A DNA stretch of 64,000 bases, taken from Lactobacillus sp. GTDB taxonomy: Bacteria; Bacillota; Bacilli; Lactobacillales; Lactobacillaceae. The number at the start of each line of letters is the position of its first letter. Position 1 is the first letter of the stretch. The notes under the pieces were generated by a model that was given only the letters and a program-made list of their open reading frames with translations, did no database searches and was not told where the DNA came from. A program made the translations under genes and the position numbers. Of this stretch, positions 22,510 through 39,954 are shown in pieces. The stretch is taken from assembly GCA_022483245.1 (NCBI GenBank), contig JAKVNR010000001.1, forward strand, positions 372,001-436,000, given 5' to 3'.

Positions 22510-25500
22510 ATGCTGTTTGACAAACAAAATCGGTATTCAATTAGAAAGTTAACGATTGGCGCTGCCAGCGTCTTAATTGGTGTGTTTTGGTTAAGCACGA
22601 CAAGTAATACTGCGCAAGCGGCGAAAAGTAATGGCAATGATGCTGCAATGGAAGAAAAAACTACAACAAAAAATGCAGCAGATCTGATTAAAGATAGTCA
22701 GCGTACTCTGTTGGCAAAAGAAAAAGCTCAGAATAGTACGACAAGCTCTACAGATAGCGCAAAAAGTATTGCTGGTTCAGTAAATGAAAAGCGGTCTGAA
22801 ACTGATATTAGCGATAGTAAAAATACCACAGAGCGAACTAGTAATTCGCTTAAAAATAATAATGTAGTGGTTGATGGAAATCATGCATTTAAAAATGCAC
22901 CCGTGAATTCTCAAGAACATAAACTAGGTACTCCAACGGTTCAAGCACAAGACTTAAAAAAGAGAACCACTTCTGTAATGACTTCAGAAGATGGAACTGA
23001 ACAAACACGTACTGTAACTGTCCACTATAAGATAGCTGATGGTACAACTGAGGGGTCCAAAGCTGCTGATGATGCAGTTTTAGATATTTACTATAAAAGA
23101 ACAAAAACCACTAATTCCGATGGTCAAGATACCTACGGTAATTGGACTTGGGATCAAAGCAGAGGTGATGAGAAGCATAAGGGTTATCATGTTGTTTCAG
23201 GAAATTGGACTTATTTACCCAAGAATTCAGAAGACTTTAATGCTGTAACTGCCGAAGCACCTGAAAAAGAAGGTTATACCCTTGATACTTCAGGTGATGG
23301 AACTAGTTCTGTACCTGCTAACAAATTCGTAGCGCCTACTTATACTGGTAATGATACAAGTAAAGCAGGTGAAAGCTCTGTTGCATATACTAAAAGCGCA
23401 GAAAAGTATGAAGCAAAGCCAGAACACACAGTTTGGTATATTCCAGTAAAGCATGAAACCAGAACTGTTACTGAGTACTACAAGTACGAAGATGGTACTA
23501 CTGCACATGATCCAGACCAAATTCAAGTATTTTATAAAGGTACAGGCGTACGTGATAAAACAACCAATAAGGTTACTTACACTTGGACTTGGGATTCTTC
23601 TGCTGGTGATGAAGATACCCCAGGCTTTCACGTCATCTCTGGTAATTGGAGCGTAGGGTCTAAAGGAAAACCGATAACTGGTCCATGGAGTGTAACCACC
23701 CCTACTATAAGTGGGTATACTCCAATAACAACGACTGGTATTCAGTACACCTCAAATAACTTTGGTCATCCAACAAGTGGTGACCAATTTACTAGAACTG
23801 ATGCAAAAGACTGGTTTTATAGAAGTTCGAATACTACATACTATGTTCCTTCTGAAAATACAGGGACTAAATATGTTTATAGGTATATAAACATTATTAA
23901 GCCGGGTGGTAGTAAAACAACAAATAATCAATATACTACTTGTACTTCAAATGCCTATTTGAACTCGGATGACAGTGGTGTAGTGTATCGTGGTACTAAT
24001 GGTACGATGTCAGCAGTTGATGTTAGCATCTCAGGTTATACACCAATAATTACGCAAACAAATAGATGGTAAGACGACTACGATTAATTCTATTGATGCG
24101 ATAACTGTGGATGGAAAGAGCTCCAATATTACTATTAATGTCACTTATATTGATAGTAACAGCAGAGTAGGTAAGATTTCTTACGTTGACAGTACAACAG
24201 GCACAGAAGTCGGTAATGCACCAATTTCAGGAAAAATTGGCAGCACAATCTCAATCACTGACACCATTAATAAAAATGTTCCAAAGGATTATGAAATAGC
24301 ATCAGGCCAAAATATTCCGAAAACGGTAACTGTTACTGATAGTGGTATAGAAACTGTTGTGGTTAAAGTTGAAAAGACTGCAACAGGAAAAATATCATAC
24401 GTTGATAGCACTACAAATAAAGAAGTTGGTAGTGCAACGATAACAGGAAAAGTTGGACACACGATTTCAATCATTGATACTGTTAATAACAATATCCCTA
24501 AAGATTATGAACTCGTACCAGGTCAAACAATTCCAACAGTAGACGTGACTGAAAATGGTATCTCAACAGTTAATATTAAAGTTCAGAAAAAGACCGTAAC
24601 TGGTAAGATTTCATATATTGATGTTGATGCCAATGATAAAGAAGTTCAGACGACTGACTTATCTGCAAAAGCTGGTGAAACAGTAAGGATAAGTACTAGT
24701 ATTCCAGAAAATTATGAACTTGTATCCGATCAAAATATTCCTACCGAAGTAACTGCAACTAGCTCTGGCATTCCAACGGTAACTGTTAAAATTAAGCATA
24801 AGACCCAAGATGTTTCTGATACAGACCCAGGCGCTCATCAAGCACGTACTATCACTGAATATTACAAATATGCAGATGCTGGGAGTTTAACTGGACAAGA
24901 GGTGTTTTCTGAAGATCAGCTTCAAGTTTTCTACAAAGGTACAGCAATTAAAGATCTAGTTACTGGAAAAGTTACTTATAGTAATTGGAAATGGGATACT
25001 TCTCAAGGTGATGAAGATACCCCTGGTTTTCATGTTGTTAAAGGTACATGGACTGGATTAGGCGAAAAGGGTAAGCCAAGTACAAAAAGCATAGTCATAA
25101 ATCCGCCTGATAAAGAGGAATATACTGCCATTACTGGTACACGTGTAAATTACAATACAAACGTCTTTGTTAATCCAAACACTGATTTTACTACCGATAC
25201 AGCTTCAAAGTGGTATTACCGCAATTCTCTCACCACCTATTATGTTCCGAAAACCTTGGTCGATAAGATGATCTCTCGGACAATTTACGTAACTGAACCA
25301 GGTAAGGAACAAGCATCTGTTACTAATAATGTGAACGTAACTAGATATGCTGCAATCAATAGTACTGACACTGGGGTTATCTATGAGGGATTTGAAGGTA
25401 GTGGTTGGCAAATAACTGGTACTAATTCTTGGCCTGCCTATACTGTACCTTCACATCCTGGCTACACAGTCAAGATTACTAAGTCAATTGATGGTGGAGC

Positions 25501-28500
25501 AGAAGAAGCTGGCAGTGAGGCTGATTTAGCTCAAAAAACTGTCACAGTTGATGGTAAATCTGAAGTCATCAACATTACCTACAGTGCTACTTCAACCATT
25601 TCTTTAGATGGCTCCGGAAGTAGTGAATATACAGGTCAACCTATTACGATTGATGATGTCAATAAGGGCATCACAGTTAATGTAATAGGTCCTGATAGTA
25701 CAACTTCAGGTAAATACACCTTAGTCGATGGCGATGTTGAGTTCTTAAAGGATGGCTCAACTGGTAGCTATTCAACTACTTTGCCAACTGATGCTGGTAA
25801 ATACTCGATGAAATTAACCGAAGCAGGTATGAACCACATTAAGACTAAGTTTGGTAACAATGCAATCACTTTCCAATACGCAGATAATAAAGATGTTGCA
25901 TATTACACGATTGCCCAAGTCAAAGCCGAGGTTAGTCTCACAGGTAGTAAAACAATTACATATGGTGATGCAGTCAAAATTGATGCTTCAAACTATCAAT
26001 TGAAAGCTACTGATTCACAAGGTAACTCTATTGATACTACTGGCATTAAATTGACTGATGGTGATCTAGAGTTTGTAACCACGCCAACTGATGCTGGTAC
26101 TTATCAAGTTAAGCTGACTACGCAGGGGATTGATAAACTCAAGGCCTTGAAAGGTGCTGCTAACTATAACTGGGATAGTGCAAGTGATGCTAGAGCTAAC
26201 TACATTGTTGAGAAGAAAAGCCTCGTTTACTCTATTTTAGGGATTGTAAATAGCCAATACACTGGCAGTCCGATTACAATTGCTGATTTAACTAGCCATG
26301 GTTCGATAATTCATGTGCAAGTACAAAGCAACGATTACGCTTTGGTTGATGGCGATGTCCAATTTGCTAAGCATGGCACACATGATTATTCAACAATTTA
26401 TCCTACTGAAATCGGTAGATATGATGTGCAGTTAACTGAAGCTGGTGTGCGTCATCTCCAAGAAAAATATGGTGACCGCAACACAAAGTTAACGCCTGTC
26501 AAGCAAGAACAAGTTGCTACATACATTATTGAGCAAGGTACAGCTAAAGTTAGCCTATCTGGTGATCAAACAGTTGCGTACAATGAAGATAAAACAATTG
26601 ATCCTTCAAAGTACACGCTTTCTATTAAGAATTCGAATGGCGACACCATTTTTGCTAATGAAACTTTGGCAGCAGGTGATCTGGAATTTGTTAACACACC
26701 AACTGAACCAGGCAATTATCAGGTTAAGTTGAGTCAACAAGGTATCGCTAAACTTAAAGCATTATCTGATAGTTATAACTGGGACAGTGCAAGTGAAGCT
26801 AGGGCAAATTATCAAGCTACTGGAGCCACTTCAAAAATTAATTTGATCAATAATGTAAGTGTTCCTTATACCGGTAATCCGGTTACTTTTGATGAAATTG
26901 GCTCTAGAGTTAAGGTGAATATTGCTGGCCCAGATAATGCAACTTCTGGTACTTATAACTTAGTAGCTGGCGATATTCAGATCGCTAAAGCTGGCACTTC
27001 AGATTTCTCAACAACCTATCCAACGGAAGCTGGTCAATACGTTGTAAAGCTGACAGAAGCTGGCTTAAAGCACATTAAAAACCATTTCGGCAACAACTAT
27101 ATTACCTACCAGTATAACGAGAACATTCCACACAGTGACTGGACAACATTAACCATTGAACAGGCCAAAGCTAATGTTAGCTTAACTGGTGGTCAAAGTA
27201 GTTACTATAGTCAAGAAGCTAAGATTGATGCAGGTAAATACCAAGTATCGATTAAGGACGATCAAGGCAATGCACTTTTTGCTGGCAAAATTACCTTAGC
27301 AGATGGTGATTTAGAGTTTGATACGACTCCAACGAATGTTGGCACTTATCAAGTTAAGCTAACATCGCAAGGACTCAATAAGGTTAAGGCATTATCTACT
27401 AATTATTCTTGGGATAGCGCAGCAAAAGCTACTGCTACTTATACAGTTGAAGCCATGCCAGTGAACGTCACTGTAGAAGGTGGCAATAAATCTGTTAAAT
27501 ATGGTTCGCAAGATTGGGTCGATAACTTTATTGATGATCCAAAGACTCCAGAAGACATAGGTTACACTCTGTCACTTAAGACAAAAGATGGCAAGGATCT
27601 GGACACTTCTTCTGTAAGTGGAAATCTAACCTGGCAAAATGATACTACTCCAACAAATGCTGGCGAATATCATCTAAGTGTTGATACATCGGCTATCCAG
27701 CAGAAGCTTGGTTCTAACTATCAAGTAATTGATAAAGTTGATAATTCACTAACCTTCACCATCGAAAAAGGCAATGCTACAATCACATTAGTTAACAAAT
27801 ATGACGATGGCAAAACTTATGACGGTCAAGACGGAACAATTGATGCCACTAATTACACTTATACGGTAATCACTGATGGTGCTGATCCTGATCGTATTTA
27901 TAGTATTAATGATTTCAGTACTGTAGATAATATTGAATTAACTGATGATTATTTACAATTAGTGCCGATCAACGGAAACATTAAAGATGCTGGTACTTAT
28001 GAGGTTAAACTGACGTCAGCTGGTGAACAGGCGATTAAAAACACTGATGCTTCAGATGATCTTACTACTGGTACCACGCTTTACGGTTCGAACTACAACT
28101 GGACTTTTGCACCATCAGAAGCTACCTACAAGATTGCCAAGACTACAGCTATGGCTACGGTAAATGGTCAAGTTTCGAAAACTTATGATGGTACAGCAAT
28201 TAGCAATTACACTCCTAGCGTAGATATCAATGTCTCTGGAGTAGGCGATACTACCAATAACATTGAATTAACTGCTGGTACTGATTATGTCTGGAAGTTG
28301 GGCAATCAAACCTTTACTACGGCACCAGTTAATACTGGCGATTACACCATTGAATTAACTGATAGCGGTAAGAATAAGATTATGGCCTTTGATGCAAACA
28401 ATGTTGATTGGGATGACGCAGGCAGCTCAATTACAAGTGCTGCAACTTACACCATTACCCAAGCTGCAGCTAGTGCAACTTTAAGTGGTCAAGGCACACG

Positions 28501-31500
28501 TGCATATAATGGTCAAGGCGTAACTTTAGCAGATTTGAATGCTAAAGACGCTAATAACAACATTACTTTAACGATTAAGTACCCAGCTAATGGGGATGCC
28601 AATCACTCAGAAACTATCGCTTTGACTGCGGATGATTTTGTTTGGAACACTACCGATGGTAAGGCTCCAGTTGACGCTAATAGTCAAGCCTATACAATTT
28701 CACTAAATACTGCTGCAATTAAGAAATTAATTGAAGATAAAGCTGGCTATAGTACAGATGCTAGTGGCAAAAAGATAAGCAACGTTACTGTTAATGACAC
28801 TGCAGTTTCTGGTACAGCAGAATACACGATTACTCCTTTAGAGACCGCTGCAATTGTTGCTGGCTATGGTGACTATGGCAAGGAATATGATGCTACAACA
28901 ACTGATTCAATTGATCCAAGTAAGCTGAAGTTTACCGCTAAAGTGGGTGACCAGACCGTTGATTTAGACACAACTGGCTTGACTGGTGATGATTTTGAAT
29001 GGGTTGATCAAAATGGTGCTGCTTTAACAGAAAAGCCTAAGAATGTTGGTACTTATTACATTAAGTTAACTAATGATGGCTTAACTAAGCTGAATAATCA
29101 GAATACTAACTTTAAGCTTACTAGTCAGAGTGGTACAGGTACGTACATAATCACCCAAGGCACTGCTAGTGCTAAGCTTGATGGAACTGGATCGAAATTC
29201 TACAATGGCAGCAAGATTTCTGCTAGTGATCTGGATAATGGCTCTATCAAAGTAGCCTTGACCTTCCCAGGATCAAATAGCGCAAGCTACACATTGCAAG
29301 ATGGTGATTACGTCTTAGACAAGACCAATGATGGTTCAGTCGGCAAGTACACGATTACCTTGACTGATGCAGGTAAGAAGCATATTCAAGATAAGATTGC
29401 TGAGCTTAGCGGTCACAGTTTAGATGGTACAACTAGCAATGTCACTACTGCCTTAGATACAATCACTGGTAGTGCAAGCTACGAAATTAAGGCTGCTGAG
29501 AACACTGTCAGCGTAAGTGGCACGCAGACTGAAACTTACACCGGTCAAACAATTACACCTAAATATGATTCAACAGGTAGCAATGGTGTTAAGGTAACGA
29601 TTATTGCCAATAATGGTAAAGCTGTTGATATCACCAATGCAGGTTTGACAGGTTCTGACTTCAAGACAGTCGATGCAAGTGGCAACGATGTTAATGCCGT
29701 CAATGCTAACGGTACTTACCACATTGTCTTAACCGACGAGGGTCTTGCAAGATTACAACGGGCGGTTGGCAATAATTACCAACTCAGCAAGGGTACTTCC
29801 TTTGGTACTTTGATAATTAACAAAGCCACTGGTACAGCAAGCTTTGAAGGTTCAGCATCATACGTTTACACAGGAAATCCTGTTGATGCTAGTGATTACT
29901 TGAGTCAATACACCCTTAAATTGAATGAGCCAAATAATCCAACTTATCAGTTGGTAAATGGTGATGTTGAATTTAAGCAAGCTTATGGTACTTGGTCAAC
30001 CAATGTGCCAACTAAGGTTGGGAAGTACGATGTCCGCCTTTCTCAACAAGGCTGGGACAACGTCAAGAAGATTAACAGCGATAACGTTCAATGGTCAGCA
30101 ACTGCTTCAACAACAGGCAAAGCAACATTTGAGATTACTCAAGCAAGTGCTACTGCCACTTTAAGTGGCTCTGGCTCAATGATCTATACTGGTCAAGCTG
30201 CTGCAACTGATCTTTCCAAAGATGGTTCAACGATTGCCGTTACTATCAAGAGCGATGGTGCCAATATTGCTAACTTGCCAGAGACTTATGAATTAACAGG
30301 TGGTGACTACACCTGGAATACAGGCAGTGCACCAACGAATGTTGGAAATTACACAATAGCTTTGACCAATGCTGGCATTCAGAAGATCCAGGCTGCAATT
30401 GATCAAGCAGTTGGTGCAGGCAATGTCGTTTTGAAGGGTACTGGCAGTGCAAGCTTTGAAATTAAGCAAGCTGTTAAGACCAACGTTCAACTTCATGGTG
30501 ATGTTGAGAACACTTATAACGGCAATAGCGTAAGCTTTGATCCAACTGCTAATGATCAGAAGGACAAGTTTGGCTTCAACAACATCGAAGGCTTAACCAT
30601 GCCAACCTTCGCAAGTTCTGACTTTGATTGGTACTCTGATGCAGATGGCAAGAATAAGCTCACTGGCGCACCAAAAGATGCAGGTACTTATTACTTGTTG
30701 TTAAATGATGCTGGTAAGAAGAAGATTGTTGACGCCAATAAGAACTACTCATTTACTGATAAAGAAAACAAGAGCACAATTACTGGTGCAATTAGCTACA
30801 AGATTAATCAAGCTGACTTAGCAATCAAGATTTCAGGTCAAAGCCATAAGGATTATGATGGTAAAAATGCAGTAGTGAGTGCAGCAGATCTGACAGGTGG
30901 CGACATCAAAGTTTCTTGGAATGACTCATCTAAAATGCCAACCGATCTTGGCAGCTACACTTTGACTGCTGATGATCTGGAGATTGTTGATGCTAGTGGT
31001 AATGCAGTTAAGAAAGCCAATGCCATTGGCAATGTGACTACTGGTAATCCAGTTTACACAGTTCGCTTAAAGCAAAGTTCTTTAGCAGCAATCGAAGCTT
31101 TATCTGGTGCTAAGAACTACAAGATCAGCACTTCTACTAGTGCTACTTACTTGATCTACAAGCAAAAAGCACAGTTAACTTTGACTGGTAACCAGAAAAC
31201 CACTTATGGCAATCCATTAGCCTTTGATCCATCTAAATATACTCTTGACTTTAGTAATTGGGTTGATCCTGACAATACAAAGCCAACTAAGAGTGAAATC
31301 AATCTTCACGATGGTGATTTGTATATTGTCTACGGCAGCAATGATGGTCCTACCAATGAGTTGCCAACTGATGTCGGGACATATCAAGTTGCAGTTTCAG
31401 ATCAGTTATTGGCTCGGTTAAAAGCTGCCTATCCAAACTATGATTTTGATGGTATTACAGTCAAAAGTAGCAGTGATAGTAAAGGCGACAGCACAGACGA

Positions 31501-34500
31501 TACACATGAACCAGCAACTTATGTCATTGATCCAGCGACTACTAACGTCAAGATTAACGGTACGAAGAAAGTTAAGTATGGTAGTTCAAAAGTAGAAGGT
31601 AACTACAGCTTGACGATTACTGCTACAGTTAACGGCGTTAAGGACACTAAGATTTTTGATGGTCAAGTAACATTGACTAACGAAGATCTCGAGTTTGCTG
31701 ATGGAACTCCAGGTAATGTAGGCGATTATCACGTCAAGTTGTCGTCAACGGGGCTTGCTAAGCTAGCTAACCTTTCGAAGTCTTCCACAACTGGTGAAAG
31801 CAACTATGATTGGAGCCAAGCCAAAGAAGCTAAAGGCCTCTTCATGGTTGAACAAATGCCAGTCACCATCACAGTTAATGATGCTAATAAGTTGGTTGTC
31901 TATGGCTCTCAAGACTGGCTTGATGATATTAAGAAGAAGCCTTCCGAATTAGGCTATGGATTAACAATCACAACTAAAGAAGGCAACAAGCCACTTACAT
32001 ATACTCTTCAAGCTGGTGATCTTGAATTCGCTCAAACACCAGGCAATGTTGGTGATTATCAAGTTCAATTATCAGCTGATGGTTTGAGTCACATTAAATC
32101 GGCCCTGGGCACCAACTATGACTGCCCGCAGAGTGCAGAGGCCGTCACCAGCAAGGGTAAATTCAATGTCAGTCAAGGTAGTGTTGAAGTTAAGTTAACT
32201 GGTAACGATGGCAGACCTTATGATGCTAAGTCAACGACGACAAGCAACTTAGATCTGACTCAATACAGTTATAGTGCAACGATTTACGATGCTTCGGGCA
32301 ATCCTCAAAGTGTCGACTTGACTGCCGATGATCTAGAAATCGTACCAATTAATAGCAGCACTGAAAATGTTGGCGAATACACAGTTCAGTTGTCATCACA
32401 TGGGCAAAATCGTTTGAAGGCTCTTGATGGCAATAATGGTGCTAACTACAAGTGGAACTTTACGACTAATGCCAAATACACTATTATTGCAGCCGATGCT
32501 CCTACTGTAAAATTAAGTGGACAAAATTCTAAAACTTATGATGGTCACGCAGTAACGATTGATGAAGTTAACAGTTCTACAGGTGACATCAAGGTTAAGT
32601 TTACTTATCCAGGTAGCAATGAAAACAGTACTTATACTTTAACTACTGATGATCTTGACTGGTATGACGAAAATAACCAAAAATTAGCCTCAGCACCAAC
32701 TGATGCTGGCAAATACACAATTAAGGTTAAAGATTCTAGTCTAGCTAAGATTAAGAATCGCTTGACTGAGTTAGCTGGAACAAATGTTAACGCTGATAAG
32801 TTAACAAGTGTGTCTGGTTCTGCAAGCTTTTCGATTACGCCAAAGACAATCAATAATGTAACTGTTTCTGGCAATGATCAAAGTAAGACTTACGACAGTC
32901 AAGCTGCTAACCTCGATGTTAGTGGTTTAACAGTTCAAGCAGGAACAACATCTCTTAACAAGGAAACTTTGGACGCTAGTGACTTTGACTGGTATGATGC
33001 TAATAATAAGAAGTTGGACACTGTGCCAACTGACGCTGGCAATTACCAAGCAAGATTAAAGTCCGAAGCTCTGCAAAAATTGCAAGCCGCTAACAAGAAT
33101 TACAGCTTTAGTAGCGCTACAGGAACGATTAATTATCAAATTAAGCAAGCTCCTGTCACAGCAGTGATTGGTGGAAATGATAGTCGTGCTTACAACGGTC
33201 AATCAACTTCTGCAAGCGATGTTTTAGGTAAGGTAACTTGGACACCAACTGGTCTTGTTTCTGAACAAAACCTTGATACGTCAGCGATTACTGCTGATGA
33301 TTATGAATGGTTTGCTAAGAACGCGGATGGCACTGAAACTGTCATGACTGGTAACCCAACTAATGCAGGAAGCTATGTCTTGAAGTTCAAGTCATCAGGT
33401 ATCGACAAACTGCGTAATGCCAACAAGAATTACAGTTTTGCAGACAACGCGGTCAGCGGTGAATTCACTTACACTATCAATAAGGCTACTGAGAATATCA
33501 GCGCAGACCTTAGCGGTAGCAACCATCGTGAATACAACGGCAGTGCAGTAACTAATGATGATGTAATCAGCACTAGTGGCGATATCACTGTTAAATTGAC
33601 TTACCCAGGCAGCACTGATCAAAGCACTTATACTTTGCAAGATGGCGATTACAAGTGGTTTGATGAGGCTGGTAACGCTTTAAGTGGTGCTCCAACCAAT
33701 GTTGGCAAGTACAAGATCAAGCTGACTAGCGCTGGCTTGACTCGCTTGCAAGATAGACTCAACAGTCTCGCTGGTGGTGAAAATGTCACAATTAGTGAGA
33801 GCGGTCTAAAGGGTGATGCTAACTTTGAAATTACCAAGAAGGCTTTGACCGTTAGTCTTGGTGATAAAGATAGTACTAAACCAGCTGGTAAGACTTATGA
33901 CGGCAACGCAGGTGTAATTAATCCAAATGATGGCAAGTTTACGTCAGAAGGTTTAGCTTCTGGAGATTCTTTGAATATCAGTGGCTTGACTAAAGGCGAC
34001 TTTGACTGGGTTGATGAAAATGGTAATAAACTGAGTGAAGTACCAACTAATGCTGGAACTTACTATATTGCTTTGAATAGTGATGGATTGACTAAACTCC
34101 AAAATAAGAATCCAAACTATCAAGTAAATGAAAATGGTAAGTTCAAGTACGTTATCAGTCCGGCTGAAGCGACCATTACGGTTAGTGGCAATCAAGAAAG
34201 TACTACTGCTGAAATTAATAATGATCAGTTTACAACAACCGGTTCAACAGGAATTACGATTCCTACTGGTTTGACTTATGAATTCACTAACGGTAAGCCA
34301 TCTGAATCTGGTACTTACGATGTGCAGTTGACCAAGGATAGTCAAGATGCAATCAAGAACGCCAATAAGAACTACAGCTTGACTTTTACTTCGACAGCTA
34401 AGTTCCAATTGGATCAAACCTTGAAGATCGTATTCAAGGATAAAGATGATAAGAATAAACAAGTCGGCGAAACAATTACGAAGAATGGTGTTGCCGGATC

Positions 34501-35695
34501 TAAGATTGAAAACCTTAATCTAACGATTCCTGAAAAATATGAGTTAGCTCAAAATCAAACTTTGCCAAAAGACTATACATTCACTAAGCCTTTAACTAAC
34601 ACAATTACTATTTATTTGGCTCACAAGAAGACAAATGTCGATCCAAATGATTCATCAACCAACCCTGATTCAACAAATCCAAACTGGTTCAAGGATAACG
34701 GTTTGGTTAAAGAAATCACTCGGACGATCAACTACCAAGGTTTAAGTGAATCTCAATTAGCTGAAATTCCGGCTGATCAAAAGAAGCAGACCGTCGAATT
34801 TACTCGGACTGCCAAATATGATGAGGTAACTGGAAAGATTGTAGCTGGAAGCGAAGGCGAGTGGGTTGTCCGTGGTAATAACAATTTCACTGGTTTTACT
34901 CCTAAGAATTTTGCGGGTTACACAACAAATACAGATAAAGTTGAAGAAGCTACCCCAAAAGCAGATGATAAAGATTCAACTATCACAATTTCCTACACCA
35001 AGAACGCTGAGCCAGTGACGCCAGATGTTCCAGGTACACCGGACGAGCCAACTACACCAGGCAAGCCAGATGACGATCAAGAAATTCTTGAAGATCTGAT
35101 TTTCGTTGACGGGACTGGTAATGTTATCGCCCGCTTGCCGAAATTGATCTTTGGCAAGAAGGGGACTGAATGGTCAGTTGAGCAAGTCTCAGCTTTGATC
35201 AAGAAATACCTGCCAAAAGGATGGGTTCTGCCAACCAACTTCTCGGCCAAGAAGATTCAGATCAACGGTTTGTCGGCCTTTGTAACTTTGATGCTGCCAG
35301 GCGAGAATTGGACTTGGGAAGTTGTTCCTAATACTCCACGCTCGAAATTGGGCACGGTTATTTACTTCATGGATGCACAGAATAATGTGATCACTAACGT
35401 TACCGCGTACTGGTCTAAGCGGGGCGCCACTGCCAAGCAAGTCAAAGACTTCGCTCAGGCGCACATGCCAGCAGGCTATGACTTTGCACCAGATTGGCAA
35501 GCCAAGGCAACGACTGACCGGCCAACGGCTCAAATTGTTAAAATTCAAAAGAAAGCTGCTAAGAAAATAGCACACCATACTTCGAAAGATACAGCTTTTA
35601 AAAAGTCTGATGCCGCACCACTTGGCCTGATTTTAACCGGGCTAGGGATGCTAGGCTTAGGCGGAGCTCATCGCCGCAAGCATGATCGTGATTAG
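22510..35695 (+). pseudogene. Giant YSIRK-signal MBG-repeat surface adhesin, split by a 1-nt frameshift near 24061 (ORFs 22510-24072 and 24107-35695)
   Basis: 'NRYSIRKLTIGAASVLIGVFW' signal; mucin-binding-like and ~27 MBG-like repeats; frame 2 is open upstream of 24107 and continues the same domain; C-terminal TM plus basic tail. Confidence 0.85.
25600..34415 (+). repeat. ~27 diverged MBG-like domain repeats (roughly 85-125 aa each)
   Basis: Recurring 'xxLSGxxxxxYxGxxxxx...L..GDxEfxxxPTxxGxYxVxLTxxGxxxI...' units counted by eye in the 3862-aa ORF. Confidence 0.85.
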
Positions 35696-35753: not shown

Positions 35754-35815
35754 GCGTATATGAAGTATAGAGGGGTGATTTTTACTTCTACTTTACTGAA
35801 ATGAGGTGCGCTAAG

Positions 35816-36694
35816 ATGCCGCACGATAATGGAAAATTTTATGGTTTTACTGAAGACCGCGTTTTTGGTTGGGTGATGGAGGACAAAGAATTTTGCAAAT
35901 TTATTTTGCAGACGATTTTACCGGATTTGAAAATTCAAAAAATTGAAGAGCTGCGTCTGCAGGAAGAATTGAATAGCGCTGGTTTGCTGACAAAAGACGT
36001 GCGGCTGGATGTATTAGTGACGGATGAGCAGGGCCGTGTGTATAATATTGAAATGCAAAACGCCAATGAGCATAATCTGGGCAAGCGGATGCGGTATTAT
36101 TTGTCGGCGATTGATCAGCACAATACTCTGCGCAAAGGCGCAACTTATAATGAACTTAAGGAAGCTTATGTGATTTTTCTTTGCGATTTTGATTATACCG
36201 GGCAGGGGCGGCTGCTGTCGTCCTTTCATACCTACGATGATCATGATCGAGCTTATATTTTGCCAACTGGCGCGCATTTTATTATCATTAGCGATAAAGG
36301 AAACCGGCACGGCCAGAGCCAGGATTTGCAGAATTTAGCCAAGCTGATGAATGGTGAAAAGATCACTGGCAATAAGCACTTTGATTATGCGCAAGAAAAA
36401 ATCGCTGCGATCAACCAAGACCCGCAAAGGAGGGCACAAATTATGCTGTATGAAACAAGACTGTTAGAACGCGAGCAATACGGTGAAGCGAAAGGACGAA
36501 AAGCCGGTATGAGAGCCGGTGAGGCTGAAGGACGCAAGGCAGGTAGACTCGAGGCAACATTAGCAGATATTCGCAAAAATATTGCGGGTTACCGCAGCTT
36601 TGGCATTTCGGATGAGAAAATTTTGGAGCGTCTGATTGCTGATTACGGCAGTGATGTTGATCCTAAGCAGATCAAGGCAATGATGGAAGAATAA
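35816..36694 (+). CDS. Rpn family recombination-promoting nuclease / PD-(D/E)XK nuclease-family transposase
   Basis: 'GFTEDRVFGWVMEDKEFCKFILQTILPD' and catalytic 'VRLDVLVTDEQGRVYNIEMQ'; ATG 35816 preceded by gaggtg. Confidence 0.88.
   Translation: MPHDNGKFYGFTEDRVFGWVMEDKEFCKFILQTILPDLKIQKIEELRLQEELNSAGLLTKDVRLDVLVTDEQGRVYNIEMQNANEHNLGKRMRYYLSAIDQHNTLRKGATYNELKEAYVIFLCDFDYTGQGRLLSSFHTYDDHDRAYILPTGAHFIIISDKGNRHGQSQDLQNLAKLMNGEKITGNKHFDYAQEKIAAINQDPQRRAQIMLYETRLLEREQYGEAKGRKAGMRAGEAEGRKAGRLEATLADIRKNIAGYRSFGISDEKILERLIADYGSDVDPKQIKAMMEE
36443..36694 (+). CDS. Predicted internally initiated, in-frame C-terminal small protein of the Rpn gene (RpnS-like), 83 aa
   Basis: Internal SD AAAGGAGGG at 36426-36434, 9-nt spacing from GGAGG to in-frame ATG 36443: MLYETRLLEREQYGEAKGRKAGMRAGEAEGRKAGRLEATLADIRKNIAGYRSFGISDEKILERLIADYGSDVDPKQIKAMMEE. 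Confidence 0.6.
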   Translation: MLYETRLLEREQYGEAKGRKAGMRAGEAEGRKAGRLEATLADIRKNIAGYRSFGISDEKILERLIADYGSDVDPKQIKAMMEE

Positions 36695-36742: not shown

Positions 36743-36982
36743 GCCTGCTAAAAATTAATTAATTGCGTTTACGCTTGCGGTCGAAGGTGAAACCTAGCAA
36801 GCTCAGACCAGCTAAGATGAGCCCTAAGATAGTAAATTCATGATTGCCAGTTTGCGGCAGGGATTTCTTTTGAGCAGTCTTAGTAACTGTAGCAACTTTC
36901 TTAGTTACATTGTTGGTAGTTGCCTGATGTTCTTTATCAGGAGTAGTGTCACCATCAGGTGTGTTCGTATCAGGTTTATCCT

Positions 36983-37091
36983 TGTCTGGTGTATCAGGTG
37001 TATCAGGTGTGTCCGGAGTATCCGGAATATCCGGTGTATTCGGCGTGTCTGGAGTATCGGGTGTATCAGGAGTATCTGGTGTGTCTGGTGT
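36983..37091 (-). repeat. 9-bp-period (TPD)n stalk repeat
   Basis: Encodes TPDTPDTPDTPDTPDTPNTPDIPDTPDTPDTPDTPD. Confidence 0.9.
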
Positions 37092-37764
37092 GGTAGTCAT
37101 CTTGTAAGGAACGTTAATTGTATAAGTTGTAGTTCTGCCATCGACTAAATCGTCGTCTGGAATGTTGAATTCATTAACACCAGTTTTATCACCTTTAAGA
37201 ATTGCATCTACATGTGAGTCACTAAGAGCTTTAACACCAACCTCATTAAGTTTTAAAATTGTGGTAGTACTTGAGTCAGTATAGTCACGCGTAGCTTCGA
37301 CGCCTTGTGCATCAAGGTTGTAGGTATTCTTACCTTCATTTTCGATACTTTTCACAGCTTTTGGAAAATCAATTTCGCTAAAACCGTTCTCACCATTTTC
37401 TGATTTCCAATTGCTCCAATTACTCCAGTTGCCAGGTATACCGTTTTCAATTGTACGAGTTCTAGTTCTGGTATAAGTAATCGCTCTGTTTACACTAGTT
37501 GCATATGCTTCTGGAACATTGCTATTTGCATGTGGTCCGTTTTCGTAATAGTAGGTGACATGCTCAATTACTTGAGAAGTTTGAGTTTCTGTTTCGGTTT
37601 GGGGTTGAGCGGTGTTTTTCTTAAAGACAACCGTAATGTTAATATCGTCACTATTATGGTTGATACCTGTTTGTTCAGCTACAGAGTATTCTTCGCCATT
37701 TTTGACCAGTACATCAGCCTTAGATTGGTCATTCGTTGCAGAATCAACATAGAAGCCAGTCTCT

Positions 37765-38086
37765 GGCGCGATCGTAACAGCATTGAATGTTTGATTATCG
37801 TCAGTCCATGTGTAGTCTGATTCTTGATCCGTATATTTCTTTGTACCGTTGAAGGTCAAACTCGTTGAACTGGGTGCACGGCTAGTGGTCGTAATTACAT
37901 TACCGTTTTCATCCTCAAAGACATAGGCGCGATCGTAACAGCATTGAATGTTTGATTATCGTCAGTCCATGTGTAGTCTGATTCTTGATCCGTATATTTC
38001 TTTGTACCGTTGAAGGTCAAACTCGTTGAACTGGGTGCACGGCTAGTGGTCGTAATTACATTACCGTTTTCATCCTCAAAGACATA
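37765..38086. repeat. exact 161-bp direct tandem duplication (37765-37925 and 37926-38086)
   Basis: Base-by-base comparison of the two copies shows identity from ggcgcgatcgtaacag... to ...cctcaaagacata. Confidence 0.97.
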
Positions 38087-39954
38087 TTTGATTGTTTCTG
38101 TAACAGTCTTTTTTATTTTAATAGTCTGGTCACCGCTTGCACTTGCACGTAAATTTTCTGTTTGTGATGTCCAAGTTTCGCCGTGACTCAAAGTTTTAAC
38201 TGTTGGCCCTGTTTTATCAATTGGAACGTCTGGACCTACTGGTTTAGTCCAGTCATCTGGTAATTCTTTCGGAAGCAGGGTAGTAATTTGGAAAAAGTAA
38301 GCGTGTTTAGCATACTCTGAGTTACCTTTAATTGCGAACTCACCCTCACCATTTTGACTGAAAGAAATACCAGTAATTTGTTCAAATTTTTGAGTGGCAA
38401 TGTCTCCTTTAGGGTCACTCCATTCTTGAGAAGTTGCACTGGTGCTTTCATCTGAGAAAGTTACTAGATTACTTTTTAGATAATCTTCGAAATCAGTGTC
38501 TTCTGGTTGACTAGTAATTATTTGATAAACGGTTTTGCCACTACTGGTTTCATCATTGATACCATAGCGATCGCCTTCGGGGTTGACTACCAGGTCATCA
38601 GGTACTTGCCAAACTCTAATGGAACTTGGCAAAAGATATTGGTTCTTTGAATAAATTTGTTTAAAGATTGCATCCTTTAGTGGTTTTATGTTTGGATTAT
38701 TTGGATTATTTGGATGTTTTCCTCCTTTGCCATAATTAAAGTAAACCCCGTAGTTGACTACTGTTTGATCATCTTGATCATTAGGTAGAGTGTAATCATT
38801 TTTTATTCTGCTGTTGTAAGATGCTTCTTCATTGAAAGTAGATTTACCTATTGGAAAACCATAAGCTATTTCATCTTCTTGAACTTTATTACTAAATGGT
38901 TCAACTTTAACACTTTGTGGATTGGCGCTAACTGATTGACCAACCTGTCCATCTTTACTGGGAGTTACAGTAACTGGTAAAGAAATTTCTTCAGTGGTCT
39001 TAATTTTTTCTTTCTTAGCAACAAGCGGTAATGTGAAATTGGTACCATTGAACGATATATCAGCATCAGTGCTGCCTTCTTTTTCTGCAATAGTAAATTC
39101 ACCATTACCGTTATTGGTTATTTGATAGTCAGTTTTGTCAATATCTTGACTTTCATTAATGTGGAAGGAGTCCATGTCCCAATCGATTTCATCTTTAGCT
39201 TTTTCATCACCGATTTGGACAGTTAACTTGGTGCCTTTTTCTAATGATGGGGAATTAATGTCAACTTTAAGCTTAATCTGGTCACGTCCGGCCATATATG
39301 TCTTAGTAGTTCCATCTTCATTTTTATCATTGTCAATCGAAGCAGAAACCGTGATTGAATTTTGCGGTTCACTTAATTGGCTTATTCTAGCCTTATCGTT
39401 AGATTTATCTTCAATTTTATTTTCAGCTAATGATTCTGTGTTTAGCGTCTGATCGGATTTTTTAACTTTTAGATTGGCAGTTTTATCATCCTTACCATCA
39501 TTTTGCGTAGATGGGGGGGTGTTAGTGGAATCTGTAGGCGTGGTTTTTTGTGTTGAAGTAGGTGTTTCAACTTTAGCACCATCGCTGGCGCTTACCACTG
39601 GCTTGGTAATTTTTGTTGTTTCGGTCAAATTAGCTTGTTCAATACCATTGTCAGTTGCCGCTTGTACATTTTGATTATTTGCAGTCATGATTACGGAGCC
39701 CAAGGCTACCGCTGCCAGGCCAACAGATAACTTCCGAAAACCGAACCTTTGCTTTATTTTAGATGTTGGATTAAATGTTGCTGATTTAGCTTTCATTATT
39801 ATTGCCCTCACAGGAATTAAATTCTTTTTTAATTACATAACTATCGTAATATCTACTTCTATTATAAGCCATTATTCCCTAAATAATAAAGCATGAAAAC
39901 AAAATTAGATAAAAATTAAGAACCACACTTGAATATATTGTATAGACAAAAATA

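Follow-up and report, generated by a model that had tools for sequence, protein, structure and literature searches.

A gene for a YSIRK/LPQTG surface protein in Lactobacillus sp. (GCA_022483245.1) was probably (probability roughly 0.6) inactivated by a spontaneous 161-bp tandem duplication of recent origin; the lesion would be revertible in principle, and nothing shows that it was selected as a switch. In the 64,000-bp stretch of contig JAKVNR010000001.1 that was analyzed (positions 372,001 to 436,000, referred to as the window), self-comparison revealed letter-for-letter identity over 161 bp of positions 37765-37925 and 37926-38086, the two copies directly abutting each other. An exact adjacent repeat of this length cannot be a product of chance. 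As 161 mod 3 = 2, this exact tandem duplication within coding sequence breaks the reading frame, and the two parts of the adhesin lie in ORFs of different frames. The sequence-only reading had claimed the identity of the copies, the split of the adhesin by a unit that is not a multiple of three, and a single-copy length of 963 codons plus stop; all of this was reproduced (3053 − 161 = 2892 = 964 × 3), and its coordinates and ORF descriptions were correct.

The split adhesin gene and its probable ancestral form

The following features of the adhesin gene were assigned in the window:
36759 to 37859, minus strand: 366-residue ORF, C-terminal part with PDT repeats and LPQTG anchor
36768 to 36863, minus strand: LPQTG cell-wall anchor (PF00746 and TIGR01167)
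36983 to 37092, minus strand: 9-bp (PDT) wall-spanning repeat, in frame
37765 to 37925, minus strand: 161-bp unit, exact repeat, downstream copy for the minus-strand gene
37926 to 38086, minus strand: 161-bp unit, exact repeat, upstream copy for the minus-strand gene
37895 to 39811, minus strand: 638-residue ORF, N-terminal adhesin part with YSIRK signal, ending out of frame inside the copy read second
39686 to 39754, minus strand: YSIRK signal peptide motif (PF04650, 30.4 bits, at G000:C1:411686-411754)

At the N terminus of the adhesin both PF04650 and TIGR01168 scored above their cut-offs, as expected for a YSIRK-type signal; the anchor motif is present at the other end, where the duplication puts it in another frame. 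The gene product is a broken member of the YSIRK/LPXTG sortase-anchored surface proteins. The 638-residue ORF at 37895-39811(−) ends with '...NAVTIAPMSLRMKTVM*', and the anchor-bearing ORF at 36759-37859(−) reads '...NAVTIAPETGFYVDS...LPQTG'. No stop interrupts the C-terminal frame over 398 codons, an open length for which a chance of ~2e-11 was calculated from composition alone.

An intact paralogue with LPQTG in frame is encoded in the same genome at G000:C1:1417423. Its alignment with the N-terminal ORF extends up to '...FNAV', and that with the C-terminal ORF runs across this point and past it. Because this paralogue has a single copy of the homologous stretch, all in one frame (a weak alignment, with 39% identity over 69 residues, as are the paralogue alignments generally outside the signal and anchor regions), a single copy of the 161-bp stretch is likely to represent the ancestral state. 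No orthologues of the adhesin were found in other strains or plasmids in the collections searched, which may omit the species' own records; a search of E. coli genomes served as negative control only.

Junction and proposed origin of the duplication

The matching run comprises exactly 161 bp, and both the bases preceding the copies (T vs A) and those following them (G vs T) differ. The junction thus shows no microhomology, with zero extra shared base, and no flanking direct repeats able to promote recurrent duplication were found around the unit; both were therefore ruled out as causes. A search of the whole 1,555,094-bp single-contig genome did not find the segment elsewhere. Neither a third copy of the unit nor a second allele of the site is contained in the assembly. 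With no further copy in the genome, a silent cassette or gene conversion was ruled out as the source of the repeat.

We propose that a 161-bp tandem duplication arose recently, spontaneously and independently of homology inside the surface-protein gene, either by replication slippage or by end-joining without homology. Since 161 is not divisible by three, the frame would be lost just past the first copy, followed by a stop. The product would be at most a secreted 638-residue piece without a wall anchor; the anchored protein would be lost, and the two-copy allele would be null. Both halves are open and the copies are identical, which argues for a recent lesion. As with any long tandem duplication, reversion would be possible in principle if the copies recombined or slipped. 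The RecA gene is intact and open, and with RecA and MutS both present and open, collapse by recombination is possible. The duplication could collapse, though it was probably not selected for this.

Other tandem duplications and sequence quality

Exact tandem repeats were surveyed in 1.24 Mb of this genome (80%), taken as stretches, and in 1.18 Mb (about 1.2 Mb) from seven congeners, likewise sampled as stretches. Two-copy duplications measuring 9-23 bp, whose junction homology was 0-7 bp, amounted to 42 in this genome and 38 in the 1.18 Mb from congeners; being common in both, they were regarded as background. An 11-bp tandem duplication at G000:C1:1268167-1268189 disrupts a further YSIRK gene, immediately ahead of the end that bears the anchor. 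A second large exact two-copy event, of 49 bp, was located at G000:C1:1494023-1494120 (L081:14023-14120); it also has zero junction homology and breaks the frame. Judged by its translation, the affected gene reads as an MFS-like transporter, and neither of its halves gave an NCBIfam match. In the congener samples no two-copy events of at least 40 bp were observed, setting aside one locus of in-frame 30-bp repeats (L167).

Two observations speak against a spontaneous duplication in the adhesin gene. In size, the 49- and 161-bp events are outliers, and their junction homology is zero; moreover, frame-breaking duplications of at least 40 bp were found twice in 1.24 Mb here versus not at all in 1.2 Mb from seven congeners, a difference that is not statistically decisive. 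Both would suit an assembly artefact, in which contig ends were joined without merging their overlap, or a gap was filled wrongly, and 161 bp (and 49 bp) were written twice, since unmerged overlaps would give zero junction homology together with zero divergence. The completeness of the assembly, 95.29% in comparison to about 99% for most congeners, fits this as well. However, the lengths of 161 and 49 bp differ, which leaves no common k-mer overlap, and in every genome examined zero junction homology is also frequent in short tandem duplications. No mark of a contig joint is seen in the sequence, no N occurs in the surveyed stretches, and the conserved genes are error-free. An artefact is, in our estimate, rather unlikely.

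Within the surveyed stretches, 294 of the loci matched by congener proteins were intact and only three were frame-split, the latter all being copies of one IS-like gene. A generally noisy sequence was thus ruled out; with the conserved loci intact the base sequence is good, the 161-bp lesion does not stem from base-level sequencing noise, and the single-base frame lesions in adhesin genes are unlikely to be mere noise. The three copies of the IS-like gene (L076:4804-5978, L085:9675-10851 and L091:463-1637) are split at about the same place, which may reflect programmed frameshifting or shared decay.

Neighboring genes

Two genes on the plus strand lie next to the adhesin gene:
22510 to 35695, plus strand: giant YSIRK/MBG-repeat surface protein, split into ORFs 22510-24072 and 24107-35695
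35801 to 36694, plus strand: Rpn-family nuclease/PDDEXK_2 putative transposase (PF12784, E 4e-17; TIGR01784, E 3.4e-32)

The giant surface protein is split by one small frame lesion at the CAAACAAA site near 24065, and its C terminus has a tail that is hydrophobic and charged, with no clear LPxTG. The Rpn-family nuclease gene is convergent with the duplicated adhesin gene, with 64 bp between the stop codons, and sits between the two broken adhesins. A second copy of the nuclease gene is found at G000:C1:1099462. The nuclease was rejected as the cause of the duplication: adjacency is the sole evidence for it, and the 49-bp duplication lies beside neither copy.

G/C runs at YSIRK genes

YSIRK signals were detected 25 times in the genome, about half of them on proteins with LPxTG in frame. 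About ten YSIRK genes are split, mostly by a single lesion, and the downstream half is usually open to the anchor. Candidate lesion sites comprise the homopolymers G6, G8, C7, A7 and T6, and further CAAA ×2 (in the giant neighbor), ACAAT ×2, 11 bp ×2 and the 161-bp unit.

In the 1.24 Mb surveyed there are 24 G/C runs of at least seven bases. Of these, 13, distributed over 12 of the 25 genes, are located from −350 to +400 relative to a YSIRK start; random placement gave a mean of 0.35 and, in 2000 trials, never as many as 13. A/T runs of at least eight bases did not cluster near YSIRK starts in the same survey. The G/C runs, which lie upstream or in the 5′ coding part, look like slippage contingency tracts, and several surface genes are broken precisely at one of them. 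Loss of mismatch repair as the background of slippage was ruled out, as mutS is full-length and open.

The adhesin gene itself carries one of the candidate tracts in the 5′ part of its coding sequence:
39513 to 39519, minus strand: C7 run as read on the coding strand (plus strand: G7), located 241 bp past the YSIRK motif, in frame in this assembly, candidate slippage switch

This run has the sequence features of a candidate homopolymer contingency locus, namely at least seven G/C bases in the 5′ coding part or promoter, and the remaining two frames close within about 50 bp. At the YSIRK genes of this genome the in-gene G7/C7 runs are in frame in six of seven cases, and the only in-gene G8 run is out of frame, as read from an assembly in which homopolymer lengths are the least reliable part. 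As one of the genome-wide set of such runs on YSIRK genes, the C7 run is a more credible phase-variation element than the 161-bp duplication.

Is the 161-bp duplication a switch?

Besides recent inactivation, the sequence-only reading had offered an assembly artefact and a reversible ON/OFF switch. Recent inactivation fits best, and a purpose-built switch is not supported, in view of the presence of two copies only, the missing junction repeat, the single allele and the 49-bp duplication in a transporter gene. A dedicated switch would require high-rate duplication and collapse of the 161-bp unit, toggling the anchored adhesin. The break is indeed clean, a collapse to one copy would bring the frame back, the RecA gene is intact, and variation of the frame type is general among the surface genes of this genome. 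There is a precedent as well: to go by the titles cited in PMC8406281 and PMC4022640 (Waite 2001, 2003), phase variation in pneumococcal capsule genes arises from spontaneous sequence duplications. In those genes (type 3 capsule locus, cap8E, tts), as far as these citing articles convey, an intragenic duplication abolishes a surface determinant reversibly in principle, as in the adhesin gene, but phase variation was demonstrated experimentally, whereas the adhesin is known from one sequence and one allele.

A switch is, however, unsupported, because no flanking repeat could re-create the duplication, the same type of lesion occurs in a non-adhesin transporter gene and the adhesin gene already has a conventional slippage tract. 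Another parallel is given by Xenorhabdus lrp, in which tandem duplications of 26-116 bp were among the loss-of-function mutations; these mutants, with duplications of similar size, were regarded as plain mutants, and none of the isolates tested showed genetic reversion (PMC6786866). Tandem duplication is an ordinary class of loss-of-function mutation there as here, although lrp is a regulator gene and the mutants came from evolved cultures and infections. We consider a dedicated 161-bp switch highly improbable. The duplication itself is a known kind of event and adds to the cases in which a surface gene is silenced by tandem duplication; a reference genome may accordingly hold an OFF or null allele of an adhesin, which calls for caution.

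Tracts and split genes in related genomes

The nearest genome (G075) has a dnaE gene with 76% DNA sequence identity. It is probably the metagenome-assembled genome Lactobacillus sp. UW_TS_LAC6_1, the DnaE of which is 87% identical. In G075, a G7 or G8 tract lies within the same distance of the start in six of seven YSIRK genes. Both in-gene G7 tracts are in frame to the anchor, and all three genes with an in-gene G8 tract are broken at the tract. Thus, as in contingency loci, the frame follows tract length in related genes. With both genomes pooled, tracts of seven bases are in frame in 8/9 cases and those of eight bases in 0/4, corresponding to a hypergeometric chance of 5/715 (about 0.007), where all tract lengths and frames are those of the assemblies. 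G10 runs occur inside YSIRK genes of the genomes G016 and G061.

The YSIRK loci of G078 and G082 (L269-L284) contain many split genes, mostly without G tracts. These split genes ruled out that mass frame-breakage of adhesin genes is unique to the genome studied here. Since they largely lack such runs, frame loss of adhesins is common in the genus, with G/C tracts being patchier.

The about ten YSIRK genes with frame lesions in the present genome, and the many broken ones lacking G tracts in G078 and G082, would also be compatible with a long-term pseudogene under relaxed selection, in which the 161-bp duplication is one among many lesions of decaying surface proteins. Yet this gene of almost 3 kb has a single lesion, its halves are open and the copies have not diverged, so that it is not old. 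Long-standing decay is accordingly improbable, and inactivation by a recent duplication remains the preferred explanation.

A wider, tentative proposal is that the lineage runs a genome-wide on/off system based on slippage, in which poly-G/C runs close to the starts of YSIRK genes and reversible tandem duplications, small as well as large and the 161-bp unit included, would let each cell differ in the subset of anchored adhesins it displays.

Relation to known slippage systems

The runs on YSIRK genes resemble those of the sortase-dependent pili of Bifidobacterium breve, where the length of an intragenic G run decides on read-through of the surface protein and G tracts are also found in promoter spacers (PMC9187656). 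There, pilus operons of an actinobacterium were studied with population data; the Lactobacillus tracts, in contrast, belong to single YSIRK proteins, are shorter (7-8) and are deduced from assemblies alone. G/C runs in or upstream of phase-variable genes are likewise known from Gardnerella (PMC11287997), Neisseria and Campylobacter, which belong to other phyla or classes; in Gardnerella, tracts of 8 or longer were counted. A G/C-run switch of adhesins is thus of a known kind, slippage phase variation, and apparently unreported for Lactobacillus in the searched literature: no report of G/C tracts on Lactobacillus YSIRK proteins was found in it, a result that is only suggestive with most subscription journals lying outside.

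The surroundings of the duplication matter more than the duplication itself, as G/C runs that are rare in the genome concentrate on sortase-anchored proteins, here and in the nearest relative, with their length matching the frame. Were this demonstrated by experiment, adhesins of a genus of importance among commensals and food bacteria would join the known cases of contingency-locus phase variation, and the split appearance of many Lactobacillus adhesin genes could be explained in part.

Near the 49-bp duplication, a G11 run was observed at G000:C1:1495868 (L081:15868) in what appears to be the promoter region of a gene for a transporter (L081:15968-17347), where it possibly acts as a promoter-spacing switch.
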